In this document: positions 11,079 to 20,212 of the stretch, piece after piece
How the letters are laid out: every line of letters starts with the position of its first letter
How positions within the stretch are numbered: position 1 is the first letter of the stretch
NCBI GenBank assembly: GCA_014193315.1
Contig: BJHS01000015.1
Span: forward strand, 1 to 45,067
DNA from: Verrucomicrobiota bacterium
GTDB taxonomy: Bacteria > Verrucomicrobiota > Verrucomicrobiia > Opitutales > UBA953
DNA: 45,067 bases
Direction: 5' to 3'
Translations under genes and position numbers: made by a program
Notes under the pieces: model-generated
Told to the model about the DNA's origin: nothing
What the model saw: the letters and a program-made list of their open reading frames with translations, nothing else
The model's database searches: none

Positions 11079-11975
11079 TTATTCCCCGGTATTTGGGCGC
11101 AAATCCAGCCGCCGAAACCATTTGCGCTGTTTCCGGACCAAGGCCCAGGTATCGAGGTTGATCCGCTCCGCGAGGCCCTCCAAGGCCACGCGACGGCCAT
11201 CCTGGAGCCACTCCATGGTCGCCCGGTAGCCTACCGCCCGGGCCGAGGCCAACTCGGGGTCGAGGTTAAGCGTGAGTAGGTGCTCCGCCTCGGCGATCAG
11301 CCCGGACCGGAGCATCTCGTCGGTGCGCTGGGCGATGCGCCTGCGCAACTCGCCGTCGGGCCGCTCCAGGAGTTCACTGCTCACCGGATGGTCGGCGAAG
11401 GGGCCGGGACGGAGGAGGAAGTCCTCGCGGAGGCTCTTCAGGGGGCGACCGGAAGCCAGCCGGCGTTCCAAGGCCTTCACAACGCGGATCGGGTTCCGGG
11501 TGTCGAGCCAGGCCGGAAGCCCGGTAGTGCCCTCGAGTTCCTGCAAGGCGGCGAGGACCGCGGCGGGGCCTTGGGTTTGCAAGGTGCGCACCATTTCGAT
11601 CACCGCGTCACTGATGGGGTATTCGTCCGAGACCGGGCCGAAGAACGCCGCGAGGTAGAAGCCGCTCCCGCCCGTCACCAGGATTTTCTTCCCGCGTTGG
11701 TGGGCGTCCGTGATCGCCGCCCGCGCCATCGATACGAACTGCACGACCGAGAAGCGTTCCGCCGGTGACACGAGGTCGAGCCCGTGATGCCGCACGCGGG
11801 CTTGCTGCGCCGCGGTCGGCTTGGCCGAGCCGATATCCATCCCGCGATAAACGCAGACCGAATCGCACGAGAGGATTTCGGCGTTGTGTTGTTCCGCCCA
11901 GTCCAGCGCGGCCTCCGTCTTCCCGGCCGCCGTCGGGCCGGTGAGGACATGGAGCGGAGGGGCTTCCGTCATCAT
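11079..11975 (-). CDS. miaA: tRNA dimethylallyltransferase
   Basis: Adds a dimethylallyl group to N6 of A37 in tRNAs that read UNN codons. The 298 residues cover the standard MiaA fold: P-loop G-P-T-A-A-G-K-T near residue 13, the catalytic Asp in S-C-D-S-V-C-V-Y-R, D-I-G-S-A-K-P-T, the H-H-G-L-D segment, and V-T-G-G-S-G-F-Y, where the family usually has G-G-T-G-L-Y. The A-V-G-Y-R motif lies near the end. The start overlaps the cdsA stop, so the two genes are probably translationally coupled. It is the last gene of the long lipid/cell-envelope run. Only weak stem-loops, and no convincing terminator, were seen in the 129 bases that follow it. Confidence 0.95.
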   Translation of the reverse strand: MMTEAPPLHVLTGPTAAGKTEAALDWAEQHNAEILSCDSVCVYRGMDIGSAKPTAAQQARVRHHGLDLVSPAERFSVVQFVSMARAAITDAHQRGKKILVTGGSGFYLAAFFGPVSDEYPISDAVIEMVRTLQTQGPAAVLAALQELEGTTGLPAWLDTRNPIRVVKALERRLASGRPLKSLREDFLLRPGPFADHPVSSELLERPDGELRRRIAQRTDEMLRSGLIAEAEHLLTLNLDPELASARAVGYRATMEWLQDGRRVALEGLAERINLDTWALVRKQRKWFRRLDLRPNTGE

Positions 11976-12859
11976 CAGGCCCGCTTAGCCCAATCGAGGC
12001 AGTAAGAGAGAAGGATGAGCGCCGTCGGTGAAGTCAGGACCAGGCTATCGAGAAGGTCGAGCGCCCCGCCGATGCCGGGGATGGTGGCGCCGGAGTCCTT
12101 GGCGCCCGCCAGTCGTTTGAAGACGGACTCGGCCAAGTCGGAGGGGATGCTGAGGACGGCGAGGGGCAGGGCCATGAGCGCCGCTTTGCCCGGGGTCATG
12201 AAGGGCAACTGCAGGGGGCCGACGCAAATCCAGGCGAAGAGGGCGGAGGCCGCGGCGGAGATGATGATCCCGCCGACGCTGCCTTCCCAACTTTTCGCCG
12301 GGCTGATGGTCGGGGCGACCTTGTGCTTGCCGAAGGGGACTCCGATCAACAGTCCCCCGACGTCGGTGAACTTCGTCGCGACGACGACCCAGATGACGTA
12401 GTAAAGACCGATGGGCTGCCGCGTCAGCAGCTGGCCATCTTCCATGCGCGCGATGGCCACGAGCGGGGCGAGCATGAACGGGATGTAGATGAAGCCGTAG
12501 AGCGTCGGGAAACGGCGGAGCAAGGCCGGGACTTCCGTCGGGCGGCGGAGTAGGGTCAGGAGGTGGAGTCCGAAGAGCAGGGCGCCGACGATGAGCAGGG
12601 CGTTGGCGCGGGCCCGTTCGTTCGCGAGGAAGAAAAGCGCGAAGAGCAGGATGAAGCCGGCGACGATTCCCGAGGGGCTCGGTTTCCGGACTCCCGGGAT
12701 GCGCGCCGCGAGTTGATGGAATTCGTATTGGGCGGCGCCGACCAGCAGGGCGAGCAGGCCGAAGGCGGCTTGCTCCGCGACCGAGAAGAAGCCCCCGACC
12801 CAGATGACCAGGCCGACGACGACCCACAGTCCAAGGGTGCTCAGGGCGCGGTCTTTCAT
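11975..12859 (-). CDS. cdsA: Phosphatidate cytidylyltransferase (CDP-diacylglycerol synthase)
   Basis: Makes CDP-diacylglycerol from phosphatidate and CTP in the inner membrane, the branch point to all major phospholipids. The 294 residues contain about eight hydrophobic segments. The C-terminal signature is present as S-V-F-K-R-L-A-G-A-K-D-S-G followed by I-P-G-I-G-G-A-L-D-L-L-D-S. The usual H-G-G and D-R-x-D are therefore I-G-G and D-L-L-D, a variant of the signature. It overlaps uppS by four bases (ATGA) and miaA by one base. With plsY upstream in the same run, it supports a phospholipid-synthesis role for this cluster. Confidence 0.93.
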   Translation of the reverse strand: MKDRALSTLGLWVVVGLVIWVGGFFSVAEQAAFGLLALLVGAAQYEFHQLAARIPGVRKPSPSGIVAGFILLFALFFLANERARANALLIVGALLFGLHLLTLLRRPTEVPALLRRFPTLYGFIYIPFMLAPLVAIARMEDGQLLTRQPIGLYYVIWVVVATKFTDVGGLLIGVPFGKHKVAPTISPAKSWEGSVGGIIISAAASALFAWICVGPLQLPFMTPGKAALMALPLAVLSIPSDLAESVFKRLAGAKDSGATIPGIGGALDLLDSLVLTSPTALILLSYCLDWAKRA

Positions 12860-13611
12860 GCGGTGGGTGGGGTGTGGAGTTGCTCGGGGGTCATGCCGAA
12901 ACGGCGCTCACGCTTGGCGTATTCGGCGAGGGCGAGCCGGAGTTGGTCCTTGGTAAAGTCGGGCCAATGCACCGAGGCAAATACAATCTCCGCATAAGCC
13001 GACTGGAGGAGGAGGAAGTTGCTGAGCCGATGCTCACCCGAGGTGCGGATGATGAGGTCGGGGTCCGGCAGGCCGGCGGTCTGCAGACGGGAGGCGACCG
13101 CGGGCCAGTCCACCTGGTCAGGCTGCAATCGGCCGGCGACGACATCCTCGGCGAGCTGGCGGGTGGCCGCGACGATCTCCTGACGGGCGCCATAGTTCAG
13201 CGCCACCACCAGTTCAAATGCCGTGAAGTCGCGGGTAGCCTCGATCGCATCGGCCAACGGGCGGCGGACGAACTCCGGCATCGCGCTGAGGTCGCCGATC
13301 ACCCGGAGCCGCACCTTGCGGCGCTCGAGGCGGCTCAGGTGCGCGCGCAGAACCCACTCGCCGAGTTTAAAGAGGCCGCTGATCTCCTCGGCCGGGCGTT
13401 TCCAGTTTTCGGCCGAGAAGGCGAACACGGTCAGCGTGCCGATGCCTAGGTCGAGGCAGTCGTCGACGATTTCGATCAAGCGCTCCGCCCCCCGGCGATG
13501 GCCTTCCAGTCGGGGGAGGCCCTTGGCGGCGGCCCACCGGCCATTTCCATCCATGATGATCCCCACGTGACGGGGAAGGTCGGTCGGCTTTGGGGGGACG
13601 GGCGTCGGCAC
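12856..13611 (-). CDS. uppS: Undecaprenyl diphosphate synthase (cis-prenyltransferase)
   Basis: Condenses isopentenyl diphosphate with farnesyl diphosphate to make the C55 carrier lipid for peptidoglycan. The 251-residue protein shows the full family pattern: H-V-G-I-I-M-D-G-N-G-R-W-A with the catalytic Asp, G-H-R-R-G-A, F-A-F-S-A-E-N-W-K-R-P, A-L-N-Y-G-A-R-Q-E-I and D-L-I-I-R-T-S-G-E-H-R-L-S-N-F. It overlaps cdsA by four bases, the common uppS-cdsA order. The 56-base gap from exbD contains no good promoter, so it is probably read through from the TPR/ExbB/ExbD genes. Confidence 0.96.
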   Translation of the reverse strand: MPTPVPPKPTDLPRHVGIIMDGNGRWAAAKGLPRLEGHRRGAERLIEIVDDCLDLGIGTLTVFAFSAENWKRPAEEISGLFKLGEWVLRAHLSRLERRKVRLRVIGDLSAMPEFVRRPLADAIEATRDFTAFELVVALNYGARQEIVAATRQLAEDVVAGRLQPDQVDWPAVASRLQTAGLPDPDLIIRTSGEHRLSNFLLLQSAYAEIVFASVHWPDFTKDQLRLALAEYAKRERRFGMTPEQLHTPPTA

Positions 13612-13667: not shown

Positions 13668-14132
13668 CTACTTGGGCTCTTCGGTCGCGATCAGCACGCC
13701 AGGAAAACCCGCGGCCCGGGCGAGCGCGCAGACCTCCACGAAAGCCTGCATCGTCAAGGCGGCGTCGGCTTTGATCAGCACGGGTCGGTCTCGTCCGCCC
13801 GTGGCGGCAACCCGGCTGAGTTCCTTCTGGAGACCGGTGCGATCGATGACGCGGCCGGAGACGACGTAGATACCCGTGCCGCGCGCCGAGACCAGGGTGA
13901 CGGCGGTCGCGGTGCGCGCCAAGTCGCTTGCGGTATTGCGCGGAACCTGGGGCTGGCGGCTGACGGCGGCTTCGCGCTCGTCAAACGCCACATAGGTCCC
14001 GGGGATGAACGCGAATTGTCCGACCAGCAACCAGACCAAGGCACAAGCCAGGCCGGCGGCGGCCAAAGGGGTGAAGTCGAGCCCTTGTTCCAAGGGGCGG
14101 ACCTTCGCGAGGACTCCGAGCGGCGTGCGCAT
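13668..14132 (-). CDS. ExbD/TolR-like protein lacking the transmembrane Asp
   Basis: A 154-residue protein with the ExbD layout: a short cytoplasmic start, one membrane helix (about 22-45) and a periplasmic domain ending in V-L-I-K-A-D-A-A-L-T-M-Q-A-F-V and A-G-F-P-G-V-L-I-A-T. In E. coli ExbD the helix begins T21-P-F-I-D25, and Asp25 carries protons. Here the same numbering reads T21-P-L-A-A25, so the Asp is Ala. The nearest acid is D19, just before the helix. It starts 2 bases after the ExbB stop. It may use another ion path, act as a structural partner, or be a degenerate copy. Confidence 0.82.
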   Translation of the reverse strand: MRTPLGVLAKVRPLEQGLDFTPLAAAGLACALVWLLVGQFAFIPGTYVAFDEREAAVSRQPQVPRNTASDLARTATAVTLVSARGTGIYVVSGRVIDRTGLQKELSRVAATGGRDRPVLIKADAALTMQAFVEVCALARAAGFPGVLIATEEPK

Positions 14133-14134
14133 GC

Positions 14135-14776
14135 TCAGGCTTTGGGGACTGCCGCCGGCATTTCGTGGCGGACGAACGTGATGATCGAGTGGGCGGCGAT
14201 TTCCATCTCGGTCACGATCGAGCGGACGCGGCCGACCAAGAAGTGGTGGGCGAGGGCGCAGACCGCGGCGATGAGCAGACCGAAACCGACGGTGGCGAGG
14301 GCCGCCTGGGCTTGCAGCATGACGGCGTCGGCGCTGGCGTAAAGGCTGCCGTCACGCAGCGCGGTGACGATGCCATAACCGGAGAGGACGCCGCTAGCCA
14401 AGCCAAGCAGGGGCGCGACCCGGCCGATTGCGGCGATCGAGCCCAGCCGGCGTTCCAGGACGGGCAGTTCCAATAAGGCGGCCTCCGTCGCGGCGGCGCG
14501 CATGGCCTCTTCCCCTTGGGTCGAGCGCAGCAAGGCCGCTTTGACCACCCGGGGGATCGGCCCAGGGGATTCTTCGCAGGCGGCGAGCGCTTCGAGAGGA
14601 CGGCCCGCCAGGAGGTTGTTCCGTACCCCGTCGATGAAGTCTGACGAAAGTACCAAACCGCGGTGGAGAAACATCGTGCGCTCCACGACGAAGACCAGCA
14701 CCAAGAAGGCCAGCGCCACCAGCAGCCAAGCGAACGGGCCGGCGTCGAAGGGGAAGGAAAAGGCTAAGGCGGTCAT
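14135..14776 (-). CDS. ExbB/TolQ/MotA-like proton channel protein
   Basis: A 213-residue inner-membrane protein of the ExbB/TolQ family: an N-terminal helix (about 14-32), a cytoplasmic stretch, then two helices (about 118-138 and 153-180). The conserved A-P-x-x-G-L-x-G-T-V segment reads A-P-L-L-G-L-A-S-G-V, so the family Thr (T148 in E. coli ExbB) is Gly129. The third-helix Thr may be kept as T162, depending on alignment. It lies 9 bases after the TPR gene and 2 bases before the ExbD-like gene, forming a compact three-gene unit. The family role is to couple the proton gradient to outer-membrane work; the altered residues make this uncertain here. Confidence 0.85.
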   Translation of the reverse strand: MTALAFSFPFDAGPFAWLLVALAFLVLVFVVERTMFLHRGLVLSSDFIDGVRNNLLAGRPLEALAACEESPGPIPRVVKAALLRSTQGEEAMRAAATEAALLELPVLERRLGSIAAIGRVAPLLGLASGVLSGYGIVTALRDGSLYASADAVMLQAQAALATVGFGLLIAAVCALAHHFLVGRVRSIVTEMEIAAHSIITFVRHEMPAAVPKA

Positions 14777-14785
14777 TGGACGTTT

Positions 14786-17608
14786 TTATTTGGGGCGGCG
14801 GAGGGTCGCAAGTTTGCTTTCGGCGGCGGCTTGTCCAGGCAGGCGGGCTTCCCCGGCCTTGAGGCCTCTGTTCAGTTCCGGGATCAACTGGTAGGCGGCG
14901 ATGGCCTCCGCCACATTGCCTTCCTTTTCCCAGACCTGACCGAGCAGGAGGATCGAGCGGGCGAGCCAAGTGCGGCCGCCATGCGTGTACTCCGGGGCCG
15001 CCTTGGTCGGGTCGGCGCGGAGTTTGGCCAGTGACCCCATCAGGGTCGCCCGGGCTTCGCGGAGGGTGCCGTTGGCATCGATCCCCGTCTCCGTGCCCGC
15101 TCGTTCCAACAGGGCCAAGGCCAGTTTGTAGCGCGCCTCCGCGGCGGTGTCGGGGTCCTTGGCGTAGGAATCGCAGACGCGTTGGTAGGCCGCCACGGCG
15201 AGGCTCACGCGCGGGCGATCCAACTGGCCCATTCGGTCCCGGTTTAGTTCGGAGCGTCCCAGCAGGGCGTCCGCTCGAGCCATCTCCGCCTGGGGGCGAG
15301 CCGGATCCTCCGCGTGGTTGCGGATCAGTTCGTCGAGGATCTTATAGGCGTTATCGAAGAGCCCGAGCGCCCGCAGGAGCTCCGCGCGGCGCAAGGTGAC
15401 GCGGACGATCAGGGGGTTGCGGCTGTGTTCTTCGGCGAAGATCTCCAGCAGCTCCACCGCTTGCTTGAGCTTGGCCTCGCCCTCGGTGGGCGCTTGGAGG
15501 ACGGCCTGCTCGGCGGCCTCATAGAGACCCAGCGCGGCGAACTCGGCCAGGCCGGGCTTGCCCGCGAAGTCCTGACCAAGGCGCGTGAAGAGCGCCTGCG
15601 CCTCCGCATGCAGCTGTTGGCCGGCGAGGAACCGACCTTCGGCGAGGTAGGACGCCGCGGCCGCGGGGCTGTTCGGCTGGGCCGTGCGCAGTTTGCGGAA
15701 CTCATCGCGCCCCTTGTTGGCGTCTTGGCCGAGGAAGGTCCGGGCGCGCAGCAGGGCGACGTGGCCGCGCAACTCGGGGACCGCTTCCTTGAGTTCGCGG
15801 ATGACGGGGCTGTCGGGCGTGGTGTTGATGCGGTCCAGTCGCGTGGAAATCTCATCCGCCAGCCCGATCGCGGCGTTGGTCTGGCCATTGCCGAGCGCGA
15901 TGAGGGCTTTGAGCCAAGCGAAGCGGAGGCCGAAGACCGGGTCATTGGCCGCGCTCCGGATGAACGGGGCGAGCCGGGTCACGAGCCGGTCGGCCTCGTC
16001 CGGTTGCAGTGATTTGCGGGCGTCATCGATGACGTTCCAGGTGTTGCGCCAGAGGGTTTCGCGGTCGGGCGGGCGGCTGGCGCGGGCCGAGGTCTCGATG
16101 AGCCCGGCCGCTCGATCGCGGAGCACCGCATCCTTGCCTTGCGCCAGCACGCTCAAAATCAACTGGTAACTGGCGGCGGCGACCAACTCCGGGTCGCGCG
16201 CTTCATGCTGGAGGGTGGCGTAGGCTTTCTCGGCCAGCACGAAGTCGCCGGCGAGGAAGAGGGAGTCGGCCGTCAGCACGGCCAGGGTGTCGCGCACGGC
16301 CGGCTCCTCGGATTGCTCGCGCAACTTGGTCAGGTAGTCGGCCGCGAGCCGGTAGGAGCCCTCGCCCCAGGCGGCGATGGCCAAGGTGCGGTTGGCTTCG
16401 CGGGCGAGGGGGCTGGCGGGCACGTCGCGCAGGAGGTCTTCGGCGGCCTGGCGGGCTTTCTCCCGGTTGCCGGCCAAAGTCATGAGTTGGGCCCGGGCGA
16501 GGTGGATCGCATCGAGCACCTTGGGGTCGCGGGGGCAATCGTAGGCAAAGTCCCCCTGGCGTTTCATCAGGAAGTCGTAGACCTCATTGGCGACGGATTT
16601 GCGTTCCGTCAGCGGTGCCTCGAAGGCGGCGGCGACCAAGCCGCGCAACGCGGTGAGCCGGACGGCGGGGTTGGCGCTGTTGCGGGCGGCCGCCATCAGC
16701 CGGCGACGGCCATCCAAACTGTCCGGCCCGATGATCAGCCCGGCGAGCAAGTCGGCCTCCGCCAGCCGGGCTTCGCTGAGGGGGCCGCAGTCGGCGAGGA
16801 TTTGCGCGGCCTCGGAGCGGGTCGCGCGCACGCGAGCCTTCTCCTTGCGGTAGGCGTCGGTCTCGGGTGCGCCGGAAGCGAGCACTGGCCAATCGTTGAG
16901 CCGGGCGATGGCGAGCGCGAGGTTGCGCGCGTAGGCGAAAGCCAGCGGCGACCCCTTGGCATTGCTGGTCATTTCGCGGAGCAAACTGACCGTCTTCTCG
17001 TCGACCTTGCCCGCGGTGACCAAGGCGCGGTAGCCGAGGAGCTCGATGCGCTGTTTCTGTTCCTCCGACGTCGCGGTGCGGCCGGCCGCCTCCAGGTTCA
17101 GGTTGATCGCCAAGTTTTCGCCTTGGTTGGCGGCGATCATCCAGCGGAGGGCGTGCCCCCAGGCCACCTCATTGGGCGGGAGTCGGGGCGGGTCGAGGTC
17201 GTTGGCGATTTTCGCCGCCTCGGTGAGGCGGTCGTCCAGCAGGGCGATCAGGCCTTCGCGGAGTTGCCGGGCGGGTCCGGGCGGGGCTTCGGTCAAGGCG
17301 ACCTTGGCTTCTGCGAGGCGCGTGCGCTCGAGCAAGGCGGCGGAAAGGCCGAGGGCGATGCGGCCGCGCTCGGGGGTGCCGGGTGCCGTGTTGGTCGCCG
17401 CCTGCCGGTAAAGTTCCTCGGCGGTCGCGGACAAGCCGGCGCCTAGCGCCTCATCAGCCAACTCGATGAGGTCGCGCAGCCGGGCGACCCGTTCCGGGGT
17501 ACTGGCCCCGCCGGTTCCAAAGGTCTTGGACGGCAGGTCCTGACCGCGCGCGGGCGCGGCGAGGCCGCCGGCGACGGCGAGGAGGGTGGCCAGAAACAAC
17601 CGAGGCAT
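14786..17608 (-). CDS. Large secreted TPR-repeat protein
   Basis: A 940-residue protein with a signal peptide (about 1-22, ending A-R-G-Q) and then almost entirely helical, Ala/Leu-rich tetratricopeptide-like repeats. Recurring patterns such as A-x-x-L-Y-R-Q-A, A-E-K-A-Y-A-T-L and A-I-A-A-Y-Q-L-I are typical of TPR units. No enzymatic motif was seen. It is probably a periplasmic scaffold. Its position directly before ExbB- and ExbD-like genes resembles Tol/Pal-type clusters in which a periplasmic TPR protein (CpoB-like) accompanies the motor, but this one is much longer. The start codon lies in the 3' arm of an 11-pair hairpin, which may limit its translation or separate it from lysC. Confidence 0.85.
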   Translation of the reverse strand: MPRLFLATLLAVAGGLAAPARGQDLPSKTFGTGGASTPERVARLRDLIELADEALGAGLSATAEELYRQAATNTAPGTPERGRIALGLSAALLERTRLAEAKVALTEAPPGPARQLREGLIALLDDRLTEAAKIANDLDPPRLPPNEVAWGHALRWMIAANQGENLAINLNLEAAGRTATSEEQKQRIELLGYRALVTAGKVDEKTVSLLREMTSNAKGSPLAFAYARNLALAIARLNDWPVLASGAPETDAYRKEKARVRATRSEAAQILADCGPLSEARLAEADLLAGLIIGPDSLDGRRRLMAAARNSANPAVRLTALRGLVAAAFEAPLTERKSVANEVYDFLMKRQGDFAYDCPRDPKVLDAIHLARAQLMTLAGNREKARQAAEDLLRDVPASPLAREANRTLAIAAWGEGSYRLAADYLTKLREQSEEPAVRDTLAVLTADSLFLAGDFVLAEKAYATLQHEARDPELVAAASYQLILSVLAQGKDAVLRDRAAGLIETSARASRPPDRETLWRNTWNVIDDARKSLQPDEADRLVTRLAPFIRSAANDPVFGLRFAWLKALIALGNGQTNAAIGLADEISTRLDRINTTPDSPVIRELKEAVPELRGHVALLRARTFLGQDANKGRDEFRKLRTAQPNSPAAAASYLAEGRFLAGQQLHAEAQALFTRLGQDFAGKPGLAEFAALGLYEAAEQAVLQAPTEGEAKLKQAVELLEIFAEEHSRNPLIVRVTLRRAELLRALGLFDNAYKILDELIRNHAEDPARPQAEMARADALLGRSELNRDRMGQLDRPRVSLAVAAYQRVCDSYAKDPDTAAEARYKLALALLERAGTETGIDANGTLREARATLMGSLAKLRADPTKAAPEYTHGGRTWLARSILLLGQVWEKEGNVAEAIAAYQLIPELNRGLKAGEARLPGQAAAESKLATLRRPK

Positions 17609-17660: not shown

Positions 17661-18878
17661 TCAGGCTTTGTCGAGACCGAAGGCGGTGTGCACGGCCCGG
17701 ACGGCGGCGTCGGCCTTGGCCGGCTCCAGCGCGACGGAGATTTTGATCTCGGAGGTCGTGATGAGCTCGCTGTTCACGCCGACGGAGGCCAGGGCCTTGA
17801 ACAGGGTGCCGGCCACGCCGGGGTGGGAGATCATGCCGACGCCCACGATGGAAAGCTTGGAGATCTCGCCGGCGGAGCGGACCGAGCCCGAGCCGAGCTT
17901 CTGGAGCGTCTCGCCGACGACTTTCTCGACGCGGCTGAATTGGTCGGTGGTGACCGAGAACGTCAGGTTGGACTTACCGTCCTTCCCGAGGTTCTTGATG
18001 ATCATGTCCACGCTCAGGCCGGCCTCGCCGAGGTCGTCGAAGAGGGCGGCGAAGGCCTGCGGGTTGTCGGGCAGGTCGCTGACCGTGACGCGGGTCTGCA
18101 GACGGTCGAGGGCGACGCCGGCGATAGCCGCGTCTTCGAGGGTTTTGGCGATGGCTTTCACGATGGTACCGGGTTGGTCGTTGAAGGAGGAGCGGACTTC
18201 GAAGGGGACGTTGTATTTCTGGGCGAACTCGACCGAGCGCGACTGCATCACCTTGGAGCCGCTGGAGGCCAGCTCGAGCATCTCCTCGTAGGAGATCTCG
18301 GGCAGCTTGCTCGCGTTGAGCACGATGCGAGGGTCCGCGGTGTAGACGCCGTCGACGTCGGTGTAGATCTGGCAGAGGTCGGCCTTGATGGAGGCCGCCA
18401 CGGCGATCGCGGTCAGGTCGGAGCCGCCGCGGCCCAGGGTCGTGACCTCGCCTTGCTCGGTGACCCCTTGGAAGCCGGCGACCACGACGACTTTGCCTTC
18501 GTCGAGGCGGGCGAGGAGGTCGCCCCCCGAAATGCGGGTGATGCGGGCGCGGGTGTGGACGTCGTCCGTGAAGATCCCCGCCTGGGCGCCGGTGCGGGAG
18601 ACCGCGGGTACGCCGATGGCGTGGAGGGCCATGACGGTCAGCGCGATGGTCTCCTGCTCGCCCACGGCCATGAGGACGTCCATCTCGCGTTCATCCGGAA
18701 GTTTCTGGAGGGCCTTGGCGCGGGCGATGAGGTCGTTGGTGACGCCGCTGCGGGCCGAGACCACCACCACGAGGCGATGCCCCTGGGACCACTGTTCCTT
18801 GATTTTGGCCGCCACATTCTGGATGCGGTCAACGTTGCCGACGGAAGTACCGCCGTATTTCTGGACAATCAGGGCCAT
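17661..18878 (-). CDS. lysC: Aspartate kinase
   Basis: Phosphorylates aspartate, the first step towards lysine, threonine, methionine and diaminopimelate. The 405-residue protein has the kinase motif K-Y-G-G-T-S-V-G-N at the N-terminus, T-L-G-R-G-G-S-D-L-T-A in the middle (about 168-178), and two C-terminal ACT domains (about 265-400) that usually bind lysine or threonine for feedback inhibition. The length fits the monofunctional class. It starts 2 bases after the hom stop, so both enzymes of the aspartate branch are made together. Regulation in this class is mostly allosteric, and no leader peptide or lysine riboswitch is present, as there is no space for one. Confidence 0.96.
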   Translation of the reverse strand: MALIVQKYGGTSVGNVDRIQNVAAKIKEQWSQGHRLVVVVSARSGVTNDLIARAKALQKLPDEREMDVLMAVGEQETIALTVMALHAIGVPAVSRTGAQAGIFTDDVHTRARITRISGGDLLARLDEGKVVVVAGFQGVTEQGEVTTLGRGGSDLTAIAVAASIKADLCQIYTDVDGVYTADPRIVLNASKLPEISYEEMLELASSGSKVMQSRSVEFAQKYNVPFEVRSSFNDQPGTIVKAIAKTLEDAAIAGVALDRLQTRVTVSDLPDNPQAFAALFDDLGEAGLSVDMIIKNLGKDGKSNLTFSVTTDQFSRVEKVVGETLQKLGSGSVRSAGEISKLSIVGVGMISHPGVAGTLFKALASVGVNSELITTSEIKISVALEPAKADAAVRAVHTAFGLDKA

Positions 18879-18880
18879 CC

Positions 18881-20212
18881 TTAGGATTCCGGGGAGAAGA
18901 TGCGGAGCACGACCGGCTCCTCGAGCACCGTCTTGAGGCGGCGGAGCTCTGTCAAGACCTTGGACATCTTGGCCTCGTTGACCGGGTAGGTCGAGAGGGT
19001 GACGGTGCCGCGCCCTTGGTTCGGGTGCTCGTACTGGATCACGCGAGCGATGGAGACCTTGTGCTTGGAGAAGATGCGGTAGATGCCCTCGGAGACGCCC
19101 GCCTTGTCGAGGAGCGAGAGGCGCAGGTAGAACGGCGAGACGATCTCATCGAGGTTGGCCATGCGGACTTGGCGGCCCAGTTGCTCGCGGGCGGCGAGGC
19201 TTTCGGCGGAGAGCCCGGGGTTGGCGGCTCCCGTGAGGGCGGCGATGGCGTCGACGATGTCGCCGATCACGGCCGAGGCGGTGGCGTCGCCACCGGCGCC
19301 GCGTCCCGTGAGGGTGGTCGCGCCGACCACGTCGCCGCGCAGGGTGATGCCGTTGTTCACGCCGGAGACGCGGGCGAGGATGTCGCGATTCGGCACGAGG
19401 GCGGGGTAGACCCCGACGGTCATCCAGCCGGCCTTGAAGTCGCGGCGGATAACGGCGAGGTGCTTGAGCGCGAAGCCGAAGCGGCGGGCGAAATCAATGT
19501 CCGCCGGGCCGATGTTGCGGATACCCTCGACGAGCGTGCGGGCCCGGGGCGCCCACTTGCCGTGGGCGAGCCAGGCGAGGATGGAAGCCTTGTGGAAGGC
19601 ATCGATGCCGTCGATGTCGAGCGTCGGGTCGGTCTCGGCATAGCCCAACTGCTGGGCCTCCTTGAGGGCGTCGGCGAAAGAGAGGCTGTCCTCGCCCATG
19701 CGGGTGAGGATGTGGTTGCATGTACCGTTGAGGATGCCGACGATCAGCTCGAAGCGATTCGCCACCAGGCCTTCGCGGATTGCCTTGATGATCGGAATGC
19801 CGCCGGCGACGCTCGCCTCGAAGAGGAACTGGCCGCCATGTCGGCGGACGGCGTCGAAGATTTCGGGACCGTGCTGGCAGAGCAGCGCCTTGTTGGCGGA
19901 AACCACGACCTTGCCGGCGCGGAGCGCGCGGAGGGTGAGCTCGCGGGCGATGGTCGTCCCGCCGATGAGTTCGCAGACGACGTGGACCTTGGGGTCGTCG
20001 ACGACCTCGAGGGGGTCGCGGGTGGTCTTGGTGGAAGGCACCTTGACCGCACGCTTCTTCTTGAGGTCGCGGACGGCGACGCGCCGGAGGTCGAGCTTGA
20101 CGCCGAGGCGCGACTCGAGGTCGGTTTGTTTCTCGGTGAGGTGCTTCCAGACGCCTTGGCCGACGGTGCCGAGGCCAAGGATGCCGATGCCGATGGTGCG
20201 AGGGGCGGTCAT
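18881..20212 (-). CDS. hom: Homoserine dehydrogenase
   Basis: Reduces aspartate semialdehyde to homoserine with NAD(P)H. The 443-residue protein has a Rossmann motif G-I-L-G-L-G-T-V-G-Q-G-V-W near the start, the family segment A-N-K-A-L-L, the homoserine dehydrogenase signature around A-E-T-D-P-T-L-D-I-D-G-I-D-A-F-H-K, and a C-terminal ACT domain (about 360-440) with Y-R-I-F-S-K-H-K. The ACT domain suggests threonine feedback. It lies between plsY (10-base gap) and lysC (2-base gap), so amino-acid and phospholipid genes share one transcript. Confidence 0.96.
   Translation of the reverse strand: MTAPRTIGIGILGLGTVGQGVWKHLTEKQTDLESRLGVKLDLRRVAVRDLKKKRAVKVPSTKTTRDPLEVVDDPKVHVVCELIGGTTIARELTLRALRAGKVVVSANKALLCQHGPEIFDAVRRHGGQFLFEASVAGGIPIIKAIREGLVANRFELIVGILNGTCNHILTRMGEDSLSFADALKEAQQLGYAETDPTLDIDGIDAFHKASILAWLAHGKWAPRARTLVEGIRNIGPADIDFARRFGFALKHLAVIRRDFKAGWMTVGVYPALVPNRDILARVSGVNNGITLRGDVVGATTLTGRGAGGDATASAVIGDIVDAIAALTGAANPGLSAESLAAREQLGRQVRMANLDEIVSPFYLRLSLLDKAGVSEGIYRIFSKHKVSIARVIQYEHPNQGRGTVTLSTYPVNEAKMSKVLTELRRLKTVLEEPVVLRIFSPES

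Follow-up and report, generated by a model that had tools for sequence, protein, structure and literature searches.

The window, by which we mean the whole stretch of DNA analysed, comprises positions 1-45,067 of the forward strand of contig BJHS01000015.1 (assembly GCA_014193315.1) from a Verrucomicrobiota bacterium, and the carriers of the Asp-less ExbB/ExbD machine described herein are a group of mostly freshwater bacteria. The locus of interest is a trio of genes that encodes a 940-aa TPR protein with a weak YbgF/CpoB match, an ExbB/TolQ-like protein and an ExbD/TolR-like protein, and that lies between the genes for an aspartate kinase and a UppS-like prenyltransferase (Table 1). The gaps from the aspartate kinase gene through TPR, ExbB and ExbD to UppS are 52, 9, 2 and 56 bases, and it is therefore likely that the genes from aspartate kinase to UppS share one transcript. 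The ExbB-like protein matches MotA_ExbB (PF01618) with an E-value of 1.7e-12 (47.6 bits against a cut-off of 22.9), and TolQ chains top the Foldseek list for its AF2 model (pLDDT 82, TM 0.71). The ExbD-like protein matches PF02472 over residues 62-151 only (E 6.4e-7, 29.9 bits against a cut-off of 25.4), and its AF2 model (pLDDT 64, pTM 0.45) consists of a helix at residues 19-41 and a periplasmic domain, whose fold resembles that of ExbD/TolR in the PDB (8pek, 5by4, 8vgc and 8p9r, E up to 7.9e-4). Both proteins were modelled as single chains.

Table 1 Genes, residues and segments at the trio locus, in coordinates of the window.
Feature	Position	Strand	Basis or remark
Homoserine dehydrogenase	18881-20212	-	upstream of aspartate kinase
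Aspartate-kinase-like gene, directly upstream of TPR gene	17661..18878	-	PF00696 + ACT domains; 52-base gap
940-aa TPR protein, first gene of trio	14786..17608	-	TPR_6; signal peptide by eye
ExbB/TolQ-like protein, 213 aa	14135..14776	-	PF01618; AF2 model pLDDT 82, TolQ = best PDB matches
ExbB residues 37-105, cytoplasmic loop	14462..14668	-	strong purifying selection, pN/pS 0.078
ExbB codon 129 = Gly, vs TM2 pore Thr (E. coli ExbB Thr148) in relatives	14390..14392	-	
ExbB codon 162 = Thr, TM3 pore Thr (E. coli ExbB Thr181)	14291..14293	-	
ExbB residues 181-205, cytoplasmic C-terminal helix	14162..14236	-	strong purifying selection, pN/pS 0.044 over 181-207
ExbD/TolR-like protein, 154 aa, without channel Asp	13668..14132	-	PF02472; AF2 model
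ExbD residues 19-41, predicted membrane helix DFTPLAAAGLACALVWLLVGQFA	14010..14078	-	AF2 model
ExbD codon 25 = Ala, vs proton-binding Asp of family	14058..14060	-	codon reading, relatives' alignment
UppS-like prenyltransferase, directly downstream of ExbD gene	12856..13611	-	PF01255; 56-base gap
CdsA-like cytidylyltransferase (context)	11975..12859	-	PF01148
IPP transferase, MiaA-like	11079-11975	-	beyond CdsA-like gene

The membrane Asp of MotB, ExbD and TolR is the residue that defines these motors. In the ExbD-like protein of the window this protonatable residue, the mark of a proton-driven axle, is absent from the membrane helix, and reading codon 25 (14058-14060) confirmed the initial annotation, which had placed Ala at the position of Asp25. 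In E. coli, the available text of PMC7014051 describes Asp25 of ExbD together with Thr148 and Thr181 of ExbB, as a polar ring around two ExbD helices. The initial annotation had also pointed to Gly129 in place of the second-helix (TM2) Thr of the ExbB-like protein, which the reading of codon 129 (14390-14392) bears out; the two-Thr polar ring of the ExbB/TolQ pore is incomplete in the window, with Gly129 at the first place and Thr162 at the second.

The state of the window is largely that of its genus. An orthologue of the trio ExbD was found in 33 of the 36 other genomes of the genus, and none was found in the remaining three (G006, G021 and G033). These 33 genomes together with 40 related loci, whose genus was inferred from similarity, gave 70 close loci with 44 distinct ExbD and 42 distinct ExbB sequences (the ExbB row L030, with ambiguous bases, is left out of the 43-row counts given below). 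The TPR and ExbB genes are present in all 70 loci, UppS follows ExbD in 69 (L074 ends inside ExbD), and aspartate kinase precedes the trio in 36 of the 40 longer loci, the other four of which begin inside the TPR gene. Position 25 of ExbD is Leu in 45 of 46 rows of close relatives, with Ala in the window alone, and no acid (D/E) was found at ExbD residues 20-37 in any of the 44 distinct close orthologue rows. A small alignment shift that would hide Asp25 is rejected on the latter count, as is a sequencing or assembly error behind the loss, since 70 loci and 46 rows agree. The initial annotation had raised an alternative ion route via D19, just before the helix. This residue is D in 41, E in one and G in two of the 44 close rows; because D is also frequent at the same place in Asp-bearing relatives (e.g., L098 and L099), D19 is no substitute for Asp25, and the proposed route was not borne out, D19 being ancestral but not invariant and the helix being without a conserved acid. 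Recent pseudogenisation is likewise rejected, as the median pairwise dN/dS of 0.154 for ExbD (818 pairs) and 0.091 for ExbB (1316 pairs) amounts to purifying selection; the neighbouring UppS and aspartate kinase gave 0.110 (931 pairs) and 0.055 (520 pairs), all for pairs with dS from 0.1 to 1.0 that are not independent and some of which include the partial row L074.

Five PF02472 places and four PF01618 places were found in the window's own genome. The question of whether it holds a normal ExbB/ExbD pair elsewhere, which the initial annotation had left to be checked, is answered positively, since the four other ExbDs all keep the PxxD motif (INVIPLID, FQVAPMID, FQIAPMID and LNVTPMLD). Within the taxonomic family of the window (f1), the Asp is kept in 24 non-trio ExbD readings from 20 regions of other genomes (L199 by eye), and the non-trio ExbDs of L173, L174, L178 and L179 also keep it. 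Because the non-trio ExbDs read from f1 retain the Asp, its loss is, by these readings, special to the trio ExbD. Two of the other sets in the window's genome have arrangements of their own: one (G000:C1, L176 3380-5087) consists of an ExbB and two tandem Asp-bearing ExbDs with long ORFs upstream, and in the other (G000:C7, L177 3562-5647) the ORF after ExbB-ExbD has a single N-terminal helix and carries a Ser-X3-His motif (SVAVHAG). Pfam gives this ORF no name, and the set as a whole is a normal Ton/Tol-like one.

Family f1 comprises five genera, namely g1 (the window's), g22, g23, g24 and g77. The ExbB orthologue adjoins UppS in g1 and g23 (4/4 g23 loci: L080, L100, L101 and L102) and lies elsewhere, away from UppS, in g22, g24 and g77; no ExbB was found at the five fetched UppS loci of g22 and g24 (L081-L085). 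In g24 (L108) a Thr occupies the Asp position of ExbD and ExbB keeps both Thr. Beside the ExbB of g22 and g77 the ExbD profile found no ExbD in 17 loci (L103-L107, L109-L119 and L172), 16 of which are informative (L106 has 301 bases after ExbB). These loci carry TPR-ExbB or ExbB alone, with ispH or other unrelated genes after ExbB in g22, and the TPR gene was not found upstream of ExbB in four of the nine g77 loci (L107, L109, L119 and L172). The TM2 Thr is kept in all 16 ExbB rows of g22 and g77, and the TM3 Thr is gone in all seven rows of g22.

An order-wide search with an Asp-bearing ExbB matched 166 of 177 genomes (E up to 1e-12, other ExbB paralogues included), and 54 loci outside f1, picked for coverage of many families, were read. 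The residue at the ExbD position is Asp in 36 of them, Asn in 13, Ala in two (f16 and f27) and Cys in one (f27), and no ExbD was found in two (L132 and L145). The Asn forms account for all five loci of f14 (L148, L149, L150, L153 and L154) and for one locus of f13, two of f25, three of f26 and two of f7 (L142, L160-L162, L165 and L169-L171). Orthology was assigned by best ExbB match plus gene order and is weakest in the small genomes of f7 and f25-f27, with ExbB identities of 36-45% to the query and a TPR gene in two of nine loci (L162 and L169; weak). In two genomes, G123 and G065, the sole PF01618 place is this ExbB, beside an Asn and a Cys ExbD, respectively. An ExbB-ExbD fusion, considered for the long open frames of some f11 genomes, was rejected, as the ExbD match of L146 lies in a separate frame segment.

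In most of the loci of the order outside f1, ExbD is followed by an ORF of ~250 aa. Common to the aligned sequences are an N-terminal membrane helix containing LGVxxHLxGF and a motif EQAxLFDSAPLFLPT, and the protein of distant relatives has a GxxxH-like membrane helix. Pfam and NCBIfam returned no match and no name for these proteins, and a profile of their C-terminal stretch has TonB as its best, though weak, PDB match (E 0.034). In TonB and TolA, according to the part of PMC12215075 that is available, a Ser-X3-His motif holds ExbB/TolQ and its His is essential. Judged by eye, the His of the TonB-like protein is present in 23 and missing in 10 of 33 Asp-bearing loci, and it is present in none of the 10 Asp-less loci with an adjacent ORF, three of which (f26) are doubtful as TonB-like because the profile found nothing in G062. 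The Asn-form loci of f14 still carry the adjacent TonB-like gene. On the grounds of gene order and ExbB similarity, the trio descends from an order-wide TPR-ExbB-ExbD-TonB-like operon in which the Asp is usual. The proposal of a new envelope complex was thus not upheld, the trio being a derivative of an order-wide operon that mostly keeps the Asp. Conservation of the trio together with the Asp loss holds for the close loci, in the order aspartate kinase-TPR-ExbB-ExbD-UppS, and fails for the distant orthologues; orthologues that keep the Asp, which the initial annotation had named as evidence against itself, accordingly exist among the distant relatives and not among the close ones.

Loss of the TonB-like gene in f1 was considered and rejected, as the profile matched in 15 of the 15 f1 genomes tested; the gene has moved. 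In the window's own genome it lies at G000:C13:26463-27188 (profile search, E 3e-28; L200 4922-5689), and in those of the loci L200-L213 that belong to g1, g23 and g24 it adjoins a trypsin-like/PDZ protease gene and EF-Tu. Of 14 fetched f1 loci, L202 (g24) and L203 (g77) have the His and the 12 others do not, including all seven of g1, where Phe is mostly at or near its place; the membrane helix encoded in the window's own genome is without the motor-binding His. Since L202 and L203 keep the His and part of the Asp-bearing loci are without it, the His does not strictly track the Asp, and the idea that the two are always lost together was rejected. All remaining genes of the trio/TonB-like system that were examined are intact. 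The Asp, the TM2 Thr and the transducer His have thus all disappeared from the lineage of the window, while all four genes persist.

The number of losses was assessed on a quick ExbB tree (91 rows, long branches) with Asp loss assumed to be irreversible. On the best tree the Asp was lost five times, while a tree that keeps in one group the 11 Asp-less rows from neither f1 nor f14 has a fit that is no worse (p 0.634) and brings the count to three; one common origin for every Asp-less row is rejected, but only marginally (p 0.046). The pore Thr/Ser of ExbB is kept in all 36 Asp rows at both TM2 and TM3, and is lost at TM3 in 36 and at TM2 in 19 of the 52 others (17 of these 52 are without adjacent ExbD). 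Thirteen losses are inferred for TM3 and four for TM2, all of them on Asp-less branches. With losses distributed in proportion to branch length on this quick, long-branched tree, the probability of such an outcome would be ~5e-5 for TM3 and 0.05 for TM2. An independent-pairs test offered two well-supported pairs, with an agreement of 1.7/2 on average, which is too few to reach significance. The loss of the Asp in ExbD and that of the TM3 Thr/Ser in ExbB thus appear to be correlated.

The ExbB of g1 and g23 also differs in where it is conserved. In the 43 rows of g1, position 129 is occupied by Ala (41 rows) or Gly (two), so that the TM2 Thr is gone throughout, and position 162 by Thr (30), Asn (11) or Val (two); in g23 the TM2 Thr is changed in all four rows, with Ser in two of these. 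Within the genus, pN/pS is 0.277 in TM2 and 0.263 in TM3, against 0.078 in the cytoplasmic loop and 0.044 in the C-terminal helix. Mean identity follows the same pattern, with 0.92 and 0.93 in the cytoplasmic parts of g1 versus 0.78 and 0.75 in TM2 and TM3, and 0.89 and 0.87 versus 0.57 and 0.65 in g23, while the Asp-bearing rows have 0.56 and 0.51 versus 0.53 and 0.54. In g22 and g77 TM2 is still conserved (mean identity 0.82 and 0.74). By these measures, the constraint on ExbB has moved from the pore to the cytoplasmic face in g1 and g23, and not in g22 and g77. For the E. coli TonB-ExbBD and TolAQR complexes, the accessible portion of PMC12215075 states that conservation is highest in the pore; the ExbB of g1 and g23 shows the reverse, its cytoplasmic parts being more conserved than its pore.

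We favour, with a probability of roughly 60%, the reading of the trio as a non-motor envelope complex derived from a Ton/Tol-like motor; as such, it is probably no longer powered. The initial annotation had taken the change in both subunits to suggest a specialised or non-motor version, and a non-motor version is still the best reading, with the close ExbD rows acid-free at residues 20-37 and the TM2 Thr of ExbB gone. It is further supported by the purifying selection on both genes, the Asp in most loci outside f1 and in the non-trio ExbDs of f1, the joint decay of Asp and TM3 Thr/Ser, the move of constraint from pore to cytoplasm, and the replaced transducer His of g1. What the comparisons establish is an Asp-bearing ancestry, the loss of ion-path residues in both subunits, intact genes under selection, and the moved constraint in g1 and g23. 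By comparison, the ancestor was an operon, of a type that persists across the order, for the TPR protein of the periplasm, a pentamer subunit related to ExbB/TolQ, an Asp-bearing axle related to ExbD/TolR, and a TonB-like transducer whose membrane helix carries a His. In f1 the transducer gene has moved away and the axle has lost its Asp; ExbB has further lost the TM2 Thr in g1 and g23, where the operon lies between the aspartate-kinase and uppS genes, and in g22 and g77 no ExbD was found beside ExbB. The former Ton/Tol-type 5:2 motor would then do no proton-driven work. Instead, ExbB-ExbD and the TPR protein, perhaps with the TonB-like protein, may form a static scaffold from the inner membrane to the periplasm, and the conserved cytoplasmic face of the g1 and g23 ExbB may bind a putative partner. 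Several points count against a non-motor complex, namely the TM3 Thr retained in the window and in the majority of g1 rows, the adjacent TonB-like gene of the Asn forms of f14, the His that does not strictly track the Asp, the small number of supported pairs and the quick, long-branched tree behind the tests of correlated loss, and the restriction of the shift in cytoplasmic constraint to g1 and g23.

Other explanations have to account for the same observations. The ExbB of the trio could still be a motor that works with an Asp-bearing ExbD from elsewhere, the local ExbD being a regulator or displaced: four such ExbDs are encoded in the same genome, and the ExbB of g22 and g77 retains its TM2 Thr (16/16) despite having no adjacent ExbD. 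However, g1 and g23 have lost this Thr, g22 has lost the TM3 Thr (7/7), and purifying selection acts on the local ExbD, whose gene is intact; we regard such pairing as unlikely. A decaying relic heading for loss would fit the components that have gone missing repeatedly within the order (the Asp, the Thr and the genes for ExbD, the TPR protein and the TonB-like protein) and the three of 36 other genus genomes in which the trio was not found, but it is rather improbable in view of dN/dS values well below 1, cytoplasmic parts of ExbB that are nearly invariant in the genus, and the kept gene order. That the trio is still an ion-driven motor via another ion route or residue seems very unlikely. 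Such a motor might use the retained TM3 Thr of the window, D19 at the cytoplasmic end of the ExbD helix, or R119, H177 and H178 of ExbB, which are invariant in 41 rows; yet ExbD 20-37 is acid-free in all rows, D19 is missing or changed in 3/44 and common in Asp-bearing relatives, ExbD position 39 varies among close rows (E/H/D/Q/N/S), and relatives with the Asp also have, as judged by eye, K/R at ExbB 119 and the HH pair.

TonB-ExbB-ExbD and TolA-TolQ-TolR of E. coli are among the closest known systems. The likeness extends to the ExbB fold, the periplasmic fold of ExbD, the ExbB-ExbD gene order and, at the level of the order, a fourth gene whose TonB-like product has a His in the membrane helix; unlike these systems, the window's lineage is without the channel Asp, the TM2 Thr and the transducer His, and a large TPR protein heads its operon. 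PVC-group clusters of TPR, tolQ-like, two tolR-like and vWA genes are described as PMF-driven in the available sections of PMC12204202, which make no mention of Asp-less ExbDs. As far as these sections describe them, the clusters share with the trio system a TPR gene upstream of a tolQ-like and a tolR-like gene in Verrucomicrobia and a TolA/TonB-like anchoring of the fourth protein, whereas the trio system has one ExbD and a TonB-like protein without a Pfam vWA match; the C1 locus of the same genome, with its ExbB and two ExbDs, looks closer to them. A pentamer-dimer architecture like that of the 5:2 rotary motors (MotAB and AglRQS) is expected by homology. The excerpted text of PMC9389320 describes a conserved membrane Asp in MotB, TolR and AglQ/S, which the window's ExbD does not have, and reports that MotB D22N mimics protonation, which bears on the natural Asn forms of f14. 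In the available parts of PMC7014051, PMC12204202 and PMC9389320 the membrane Asp is treated as conserved and essential, and no published description of an Asp-less ExbD was found in the open-licence PMC literature (most subscription papers fall outside this scope).

In g1 and its sister genus g23, the location of the operon between the genes for aspartate kinase and UppS hints at a connection with envelope supply, although it may be due to chance. As a tentative extension, these assemblies may have been de-motorised several times independently and kept structurally, and the cytoplasmic platform of the g1 and g23 ExbB, in an operon with uppS and cdsA, could possibly tie a cytoplasmic lipid-carrier/envelope-supply enzyme to the periplasmic TPR scaffold. 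The results also advise caution, since annotation with PF02472 or PF01618 is no proof of proton-driven work. The natural series of one operon, with Asp, Asn, Asp-less and ExbD-less forms, could be used to study what ExbB-ExbD does besides rotate, and to tell scaffold functions from motor functions.
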